Of a DNA stretch of 64,000 nt, positions 12,629-14,165 are shown one piece after another. This DNA is from Candidatus Kapaibacterium sp. (lineage in GTDB: Bacteria > Bacteroidota > Ignavibacteria > Kapaibacteriales > UBA2268), in the NCBI GenBank assembly GCA_937927515.1, contig CALBDO010000015.1, forward strand, positions 1 through 64,000. The letters are read 5' to 3'. The notes under the pieces were generated by a model. It was not told where the DNA came from, did no database searches, and saw only the letters and a program-made list of their open reading frames with translations. The stretch's first letter is position 1. Each line of letters starts with the position of its first letter. A program made the translations under genes and the position numbers.

Positions 12629-13001
12629 ATTCGAATACCATTAATGAATTTTATATAATCGTAAATTTTGACTAAAATCAATTGTGAAAAAATTAATTGA
12701 AAAAGTCGAAATTTCAATGAATTAAAACGAATTCTTTCAAAACTTCCCCACTGTTTTTGAAAGTCATTTTGAAACAACACGTTTCTCTTTCAGACACTCT
12801 CATAGTCAACATAAAAATATTCCAATGATGTTCATCTAAAACAATCTCATAGATTTTTTCTATCCAATTTATCCAATAAGGTTACAGAAGATTTGAAAAG
12901 TTTGGAAATTATAATTAATTTTAAATTTAAAGAATTAAACAATTTAAGTTTTGTAAAATAAATGTTGTTTGGTAATTTAGTCATTTTAAAATAAGTGGAT
13001 T
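12629..13001 (+). other. Gene-free AT-rich stretch ahead of the IS1-like gene
   Basis: 373 bases with no convincing open frame, terminator or structured RNA. Only the last 55 bases hold an interpretable signal, a promoter-like element. I looked for terminal inverted repeats matching the far side of the downstream gene (14148-14174) and found none that were convincing. Confidence 0.6.
12950..12980 (+). promoter_or_regulatory. Promoter-like element before the IS1-like gene
   Basis: TTTG at 12950-12953, a 19-base spacer and TAATTTAG at 12973-12980. This matches the Bacteroidota -33/-7 layout with one change in the -7 box (TTAG for TTTG). The ATG lies 21 bases downstream. Confidence 0.5.
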
Positions 13002-14147
13002 ATGAAGAACGGTGAAAATCTAAATTGCATCTATTGTAAAAGCAGTAAAGTAATTCGGCATGGCAGGACCTCTACTGGTAATAGACGTTACCGATGCCGA
13101 AACTGCGGAAGAACTTGGGTGATGGAAAAAGCAGAAACGATGAGACCAGACATTGTAAGTTTAACAGAGGCTTATCTTAATGGACGCACTATACGGGATT
13201 TAGTAGATGTTTATCGAAGCTCACCTTTAAGAATTAATAAAAAAGTTCGAGAATTTCTTGAAGGCTGTCCAAACTGGGAGGATTACCTCGATTTGTGTGT
13301 TCCAAAACATAGTTCACAGCTTGCTTACCTCATTGGCAAGACTTTTTCCGCTGCAACCTCCGAAAATCCCAAGCATACAATGTATTTGGCAATGATAGTG
13401 GATGCTCTCTCAAACGTCATTTTAGGGTTCGAGCTCTCCGAAAAGGATGATTACAATACTTGGTTTAGACTTACAAGTAGAGCCAAGAGACGCGGAATCG
13501 AAATTCCCAATTTTATGTCCAATGGCTCTATTCATATTGAAGAAGCAGTAAATGCAGTGTATCCAAACTCGAGTGTGAAACTTTTTTACCACAGGTTCTA
13601 TCGGGATAAAGAAGTAAATTGTTGCCTTACGCGTTTACCAATAAACGCAAAATTAATTAACGACGCCATCTATGCATACGAAGTGTGCAATAACCATAAT
13701 CTATCGAGATACCTCAAAATTACAAGCGATAAATTCTTCCACGAAGTATTAAAAAGTTCCCCAGATTATTTCTGTGGGCGACTTCGACAAAGAATGGATA
13801 ATAAGCCAAAAATCAGAATAGAGGGGCTGACGAATGCATTTCAAGCCCGCTTCGAAAAGTTTCACATGCTTAAAAGTGACCCATTTCCATTAGTAAACGG
13901 TTGGATTGCAAAATGGCTCCTCCAGCCACTCGATATAGGATTCTCACGACTTGCAATTTATATGCAACTTCCAGTATTTACTAACTTTCGACAATTCTCT
14001 TGCGGACAAATTCCAACTTTAAACATTCTCTCGTTGGATAGTCCCCAGTTAAAAACATTCATAGTAGAAATTGCTGCACGAGCCTTGCAAATTCCAATTT
14101 TTTATAATCGTTGTGAAATGAAATTTGATAGATGTAGTTTATACTAA
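13002..14147 (+). CDS. IS1-like transposase homologue, apparently catalytically dead
   Basis: 381 residues in one intact frame. The N-terminus is an InsA-type zinc ribbon: Cys9 and Cys12 (CIYC), then HGRTSTGNRRYRC with Cys32 and Cys35, followed by RTW. A helix-turn-helix-like part follows to about residue 90. The rest resembles an InsB-type RNase H fold. By eye, the first acidic position (usual DExW) reads IGKTF near residue 112, and the second (usual TDGW) reads MSNGS with Asn174; the third matches RIEGLTN with Glu274. Two of three catalytic acids thus seem lost while the frame stays open. No terminal repeats or second copy were seen. It lies between folK and two tRNA-Arg genes. It may be a domesticated DNA-binding protein or a recent relic. 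Confidence 0.7.
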   Translation: MKNGENLNCIYCKSSKVIRHGRTSTGNRRYRCRNCGRTWVMEKAETMRPDIVSLTEAYLNGRTIRDLVDVYRSSPLRINKKVREFLEGCPNWEDYLDLCVPKHSSQLAYLIGKTFSAATSENPKHTMYLAMIVDALSNVILGFELSEKDDYNTWFRLTSRAKRRGIEIPNFMSNGSIHIEEAVNAVYPNSSVKLFYHRFYRDKEVNCCLTRLPINAKLINDAIYAYEVCNNHNLSRYLKITSDKFFHEVLKSSPDYFCGRLRQRMDNKPKIRIEGLTNAFQARFEKFHMLKSDPFPLVNGWIAKWLLQPLDIGFSRLAIYMQLPVFTNFRQFSCGQIPTLNILSLDSPQLKTFIVEIAARALQIPIFYNRCEMKFDRCSLY

Positions 14148-14157
14148 AATTTTTTCT

Positions 14158-14165
14158 TAATTTTG
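14158..14165 (+). promoter_or_regulatory. Bacteroidota -7-like element for the tRNA-Arg pair
   Basis: TAATTTTG at 14158-14165 ends 9 bases before the first mature tRNA base, the distance expected for a start close to the tRNA 5' end. Confidence 0.55.

Follow-up and report, generated by a model that had tools for sequence, protein, structure and literature searches.

We propose that the gene at 13002-14147 of the window (the whole 64,000-nucleotide stretch of DNA that was analysed) is, on balance, an ancient transposase that has been domesticated and is retained as a sequence-specific and probably autoregulatory DNA-binding protein. That its product is dead and domesticated is well supported. 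As read from the sequences, the gene is inherited at one locus, has lost active-site acids, retains residues of DNA binding and lies behind a promoter footprint that, within its genus, is private to this gene. The features that carry the argument are as follows:

12950-12980, + strand: promoter with a conserved footprint, proposed as operator for the gene's own product (genus conservation, motif searches)
12950-12953, 12963-12967 and 12973-12980, + strand: TTTG (-33-type), TGTTG in the spacer and TAATTTAG (-7-type), respectively (sequence)
13002-14147, + strand: domesticated, catalytically dead zinc-ribbon IS256/IS1-type transposase gene, 381 aa (open reading frame, domain matches, family alignment)
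13026-13106, + strand: zinc ribbon, residues 9-35, with C9, C12, C32 and C35 (Pfam and NCBIfam matches, family alignment)
13152-13265, + strand: helix-turn-helix (HTH) region, residues 51-88, whose Y58, G61 and R65 align with IS256 DNA-binding residues (predicted fold, profile alignment)
13320-13583, + strand: RNase H-like core strands 1-5, residues 107-194, with G112 at 13335-13337 and N174 at 13521-13523 (predicted fold, alignment)
13587-13814, + strand: all-helical insertion domain, residues 196-271, starting beside H197 of the C/DxxH motif (predicted fold, family alignment)
13818-14090, + strand: residues 273-363, comprising a core helix that bears E274 (13821-13823), the proposed third acid, and the helices of the C-terminus (predicted fold, alignment)

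The reading frame starts at an ATG and runs unbroken to 381 aa, so that the intact frame of the preliminary description is borne out. Its genome (2.39 Mb in 41 contigs) holds a single copy, the next match having an E-value of 0.13; many identical copies, which the same description had named as evidence against its reading, are not found. A folB/HPPK pair lies upstream, with two tRNA-Arg genes and recX-recA downstream.

The protein had been called IS1-like, which holds for its front, where zinc ribbon and HTH are of IS1/IS1595 kind, but not for its core, which is built like that of IS256/Mutator transposases and contains a helical insertion domain. In the AF2 model (pLDDT 87), an RNase H-like core is combined, as in IS256, with an all-helical insertion (helices 196-271), and the best solved fold is that of ISCth4, an IS256-family transposase (PDB 6xg8/6xgx; Z 14.0, rmsd 6.9, 227 residues; Foldseek E 1e-7, TM-score 0.39), followed by retroviral integrase cores (Z up to 12.9 over ~156 residues). 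The spacing from the second to the third catalytic position is 100 here, against 25 in 4/4 IS1 proteins and 123-129 in 4/4 zinc-ribbon variants; ISCth4, with D241 as second acid and E348 as third, has 107 (PMC7780238, in excerpt), and its first-to-second spacing is 66, against 62 here. Because the best fold is ISCth4 and because of the second-to-third spacing, we take the predicted structure to be an IS256/Mutator-plan core behind an IS1-type front, and not an IS1 transposase proper. The latter is 232 aa long and made by frameshift (PMC12428005, in excerpt), unlike the single frame of 381 codons found here, which has neither the two-frame, -1 frameshift layout nor the short IS1 core of ~25 residues between second and third acid.

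Sequence comparisons place the protein less sharply. No full-length family model reaches its cut-off: the score is 37.7 bits against 100 for the IS1 NCBIfam model, and 27 against 300 and 22.6 against 150 for the curated models of the zinc variants, NF048019 and NF033544. The IS1 model (InsA/InsAB', NF033558), with which the zinc ribbon and HTH are shared, covers positions 1-81 in the window protein and 1-165 of 199 in the G075 orthologue (E 2.4e-15). The zinc-ribbon IS256 variants/IS1249 share the order of zinc ribbon, HTH and core with long insertion, and match by profile over the front and the first half of the core (probability 98.1). Among the best 60 of 143 matches in the PDB, the meaningful one is ISCth4 (E 1.6e-5), seen only with a profile; most of these 60 are C2H2 fingers of eukaryotes, picked up by way of the zinc ribbon and judged spurious. 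A viral fold library gave weak matches, two at E 0.001 or better, and PHROGs gave the transposase family phrog_1191 together with weak matches.

The front of the protein retains what DNA binding would need. Its InsA-type zinc ribbon, recognised in the preliminary description from the four cysteines, is confirmed by Pfam (Zn_ribbon_InsA, E 2e-6) and NCBIfam (IS1_IS1595_Zn, E 5.9e-11) and stands above the cut-offs of the IS1/IS1595 and IS256_N_4Cys domain models; all four cysteines are present in the 30/30 alignment rows that reach them, and ribbon and HTH together are a feature of the IS1 family. The HTH carries the Y-x2-G-x3-R of ISCth4/IS256: Y58, G61 and R65, invariant in 30/30 rows, correspond to IS256 Y111, G114 and R118 by profile alignment to IS256 proteins (the Thr of the IS256 set is variable and is not kept). 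Mutation of these three residues in IS256 abolishes or reduces DNA binding (PMC7780238, in excerpt). In place of the zinc ribbon, ISCth4/IS256 has dimerisation and NDB domains.

The catalytic half tells a different story. The motifs IGKTF (G112), MSNGS (N174) and RIEGL (E274) are present as first described, and profile alignment to 10 IS256 proteins sets G112 against the first Asp and N174 against the second, which upholds the claimed loss of two catalytic acids. The first-position stretch holds no acid in either the IS256 or the IS1 register, the latter being ~2 residues off at this position (read by eye). E274 is placed as third acid by helix order (helix 273-285 of the predicted fold) and spacing only, profile alignment of the C-terminal part against IS1, IS256 and the zinc variants being not significant. 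Our family alignment has 31 rows from 30/31 carrier genomes (two of the rows are from G018, that of G010 is a fragment and G069 is absent). Across it, position 112 is Gly in 28 rows, Ser in one, Glu in one (L006) and Asp in one (L025), the acid thus being absent in 29/31; position 174 is Asn in 24, Lys in three and Arg in four, with an acid in 0/31; and at position 274, 18 rows have Glu and 13 have Asp. Of the C/DxxH motif, an IS256 feature, 28/31 rows keep the His and 0/31 the C/D. The window protein thus lacks a DDE triad in the IS1 or the IS256 sense, in contrast to ISCth4/IS256, from which it differs in the loss of the first two acids and the C of CxxH, and to the zinc-ribbon variants, four of which keep D, D and E (by eye). 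The best explanation for the shared loss of both acids and of the C/D is that inactivation preceded the divergence of the present genera.

Could the protein still be an active nuclease or transposase that uses other acids? Asp or Glu does occupy positions 97, 134, 202, 204, 221, 274 and 356 in 30 or 31 of the 31 rows, and the third catalytic position is always one or the other. The two lost positions are, however, core metal ligands of DDE enzymes, and there are neither multiple copies nor any sign of mobility, which together make continued catalysis highly unlikely.

Inheritance points the same way. Our family set comprises 54 Kapabacteria-type genomes (some incomplete) in 27 genera; a family profile finds the gene in 31/54 genomes and 16/27 genera (counted from the table), with N-terminal matches only in three further genomes, and 23/54 (some incomplete) are without it. 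One locus is found in 30/31 carriers, the exception being G018, which has two. Its second, long-branch copy (L025, G018:C68:5789-6901) has Asp at the first-acid column and Lys at the second, and lies upstream of an ATP sulfurylase gene; such a gene also follows the orthologue in L058. Among 395 phylum genomes there are 11 matches at E 1e-8 or better, namely five family members and six others that match in the N-terminal part only, and searches of 72,556 plasmid records, of 50,697 phage records and, with family patterns, of IMG/VR yielded no relative. In the tree, each of the six multi-member genera clusters; branches are long, forks are open and the two G018 copies fall apart, such that we use only the genus clusters.

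Within groups of the family the neighbours of the orthologue are conserved. folB and HPPK lie upstream in 4/5 genomes of the window's genus, and the tRNA-Arg pair downstream in 3/5. In five other genera, a response-regulator gene lies at most three genes upstream on the same strand, and in the two of these five that were checked the response regulators are receiver plus GCV_H fusions. In these two loci (L051:8984-9766 and L052:9097-9870), the receiver fused to a glycine cleavage H-like domain (PF00072 and PF01597) is directly upstream of the orthologue; in L051 it is preceded by a PAS histidine kinase, and in L052, the g6 operon, our gene starts 19 nt after the response regulator. Three genera have directly upstream what we take, from its P-loop motif, to be an adenylate-kinase-like gene, and another neighbour is, presumably, SSB-like, judging by a sequence motif.

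The comparison of dN/dS among orthologues suggested in the preliminary description shows purifying selection where dS is measurable: omega is 0.017-0.055 in seven pairs within genera g19 and g21 with dS below 3, and in the window's own genus dS is saturated in 9/10 pairs, the tenth giving 0.068 at a dS of 3.2. Conservation is also unevenly spread. In the main clade (14 rows) mean pairwise identity is highest in the HTH, at 71%, and lowest in the core strands, at 52%, an order that is reversed in 10 active IS256 proteins (32% vs 41%); the HTH leads only slightly in the divergent clade, by 38% to 34%, and in four zinc-variant insertion sequence (IS) proteins, by 40% to 38%. A recently dead IS copy in decay, for which one might cite the transposase ancestry and the split G010 orthologue, is accordingly scarcely credible: frames are unbroken in 30/31 carrier genomes, omega is low and inactivation is common to the genera. 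The G010 gene itself (L060:5835-6979) is divided over two frames at around residue 80-90, for which decay, a frameshift or an assembly error are all possible. The marks of a domesticated transposase (one locus, genus clustering, purifying selection and lost catalytic acids) are all found here, and the DNA-binding protein that the preliminary description had inferred gains support from the single copy, the one locus, purifying selection, a second acid dead in 31/31 rows and the retained DNA-binding residues.

Several or shifting copies, as in mobile IS256 elements, are not seen, and the locus looks like a chromosomal gene rather than a mobile element. Terminal repeats speak less clearly. The best flanking pair is AT-rich, with 13/15 nt matching between 12680-12694 and 14148-14162, and 13% of shuffles reach the best score of the locus, in a test that is clear in only 5/17 real IS elements; of 11 family loci, scoring 9 to 13, one (L011) is matched or beaten by 2% of shuffles, and the other ten show nothing unusual. 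Among the controls, for which a score of 14 or more marks clear ends, three of four zinc-ribbon elements have perfect repeats (27/27, 14/14 and 14/14 nt), of a kind not seen at our locus, and one IS256 and one IS1 element score 14 and 15; the other 12/17 score 8 to 13, overlapping the family. Because this control is mixed, the case against mobility rests on copy number and inheritance.

A dead protein might instead serve as a trans-acting inhibitor of a related IS, occupying its terminal repeats and poisoning transposase multimers, as InsA does for IS1 (PMC12428005, in excerpt), and a degenerate zinc-ribbon IS256 fragment with four stops in G021 lends this some colour. However, searches of the protein's own genome with models of IS1249, IS256_Zn_var, Transposase_mut, IS1 and IS256 give no match at the thresholds used, and an anti-transposition role is disfavoured for this reason; moreover, 4/5 genus genomes lack an IS1-model match at E 1e-10 (G003 has one), and the promoter footprint is not repeated elsewhere in the genomes of the genus. 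We consider such a role improbable. In the wider family, 40/54 genomes have no IS1-model match at E 1e-10, and G032 (L111, G032:C103, and other contigs) has eight, one of them full length. The G021 fragment (L109, G021:C31:51041-51427) is a trace of real zinc-ribbon IS256-like elements in the family.

The TTTG-N19-TAATTTAG element noted just upstream of the gene is present at 12950-12980 and fits the Bacteroidota promoter consensus (PMC7366714, in excerpt), and a motif within its spacer is conserved and operator-like. In the five genus genomes a block TTTGTA...ATGTTGTTT..TAATTT is conserved, and the footprint (TTTGTA-N7-TGTTG and on), allowing up to three mismatches, occurs once per genome in 5/5, always before this gene, with none in the control. 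An unsupervised search of one promoter per genus in 11 main-clade genera recovers TTTrTAAnnnTnnTGTTG, scoring 11 or more in 9/11; its total of 71.1 compares with a mean of 50.7 (sd 2.6, maximum 55.7) in 15 null sets, which were promoters of unrelated genes and not orthologous promoter sets. The sites lie 8 nt before the ATG in g15 and 151 nt away in g26. In a held-out test, where a matrix trained on the window's genus only was applied at fixed spacing alongside 278 background promoters, 3/10 other main-clade genera stand out: g12 and g7 score above 278/278 and one g21 member above 277/278. The other three g21 members are reached by 2-7/278; the matrix picks up neither g19 nor g5, where the site is shorter by one base, nor five further genera, and of the divergent clade g18 alone scores fairly high (reached by 8-9/278). 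The pattern TTTGTAN6-8TGTTG, chosen from the same promoters and counted from a list, occurs 15 times in 22 neighbourhoods; 11 of these sites immediately precede the gene (at nine loci), one precedes the operon in L052 and three are elsewhere.

Other observations set the scale for this signal. Upstream conservation is not in itself special, since nine other genes shared with G001 have best 29-nt windows of 23-29 identities, several overlapping coding sequence, vs 26 here; in G002 the pairwise comparison misses the footprint (20/29), as the start was called upstream of it. The form with TGTTGCAA is scattered, with 51 sites in 54 genomes and four at this gene; the pattern read backwards gives one site, an unfair control since it holds CpG. 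Sigma-70 and terminator scans near the gene stay at shuffle level. Within the window, the Bacteroidota consensus in the form TTTG-N18-20-TAnnTTTG (three found vs 2.29 expected) and the loose motif with two mismatches (nine vs 6.03) are at chance level, and no regulon can therefore be called. We also considered the footprint as a relic of a terminal repeat and rejected this, the family matrix being not above shuffles upstream of 11/13 IS256 or zinc-variant elements; L130 beats 200/200 shuffles and L122 is borderline at 5%. What footprint and elements still have in common is TGTAA; its agreement with TGTAAA at the ends of IS256 is a weak coincidence (PMC7780238, in excerpt).

A domesticated DNA-binding protein could also do without any action on its own promoter, for example as an architectural or a replication/repair accessory protein, and the footprint would then be merely a strong promoter or another regulator's site. 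Housekeeping neighbours (folB, HPPK, recX-recA, SSB-like and adenylate-kinase-like) and the conserved upstream DNA of other genes in the genus suit such a role; on the other hand, the footprint is found nowhere else in the five genus genomes, and in several other genera related motifs stand upstream of the gene or of its operon. We hold this possible, if unlikely, and the footprint is likely to be an operator.

Synthesising these findings, the autoregulatory reading that we favour runs as follows. An ancient transposase of the zinc-ribbon IS256/IS1 kind would have become a host gene, losing its strand-transfer chemistry and retaining the DNA-binding front with which it had bound element ends. 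We infer, from sequence comparisons, that the protein binds DNA and regulates its own gene: it may bind a site that contains TGTTG and lies between the -33 and -7 boxes of its promoter, and there compete with RNA polymerase, such that its own level would stay constant in the way that InsA works for IS1. The promoter of InsA overlaps the left repeat of IS1 and is repressed by InsA itself (PMC12428005, in excerpt). Action at further host sites is probable too, and none was found in the present scans.

A more far-reaching and, to our minds, doubtful version is that an IS was kept by its left half, comprising left end, promoter and transposase, as an autoregulated regulator gene. The operator would then descend from the left terminal repeat, with no right end remaining, and the dead enzyme, insertion domain included, would have become a dedicated transcription factor of a bacterial family. 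If true, this would be a bacterial counterpart of plant FHY3/FAR1. These carry a zinc finger. They are plant transcription factors derived from domesticated Mutator-like transposases (PMC13306707, in excerpt). The likeness, drawn by description only, lies in a Mutator-superfamily transposase turned transcription regulator; the plant proteins differ in host and in forming a multi-gene family. Among bacteria, the nuclease-dead TldR descends from TnpB. TldR proteins are transposon-derived, RNA-guided transcription factors (PMC13418256, in excerpt), and in being RNA-guided and not of DDE transposase origin they differ from the protein described here.

Transposase-derived transcription factors are thus already known from plants; in listings of open-licence papers we found no bacterial domesticated DDE regulators and no Kapabacteria transposases of this kind. 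The gene is also a warning that a transposase-like score may belong to an ordinary host gene. Finally, many orthologues in the family combine an intact protein with a candidate operator, and more distant active transposases are there to compare them with; through this combination the steps from transposase to regulator become testable.
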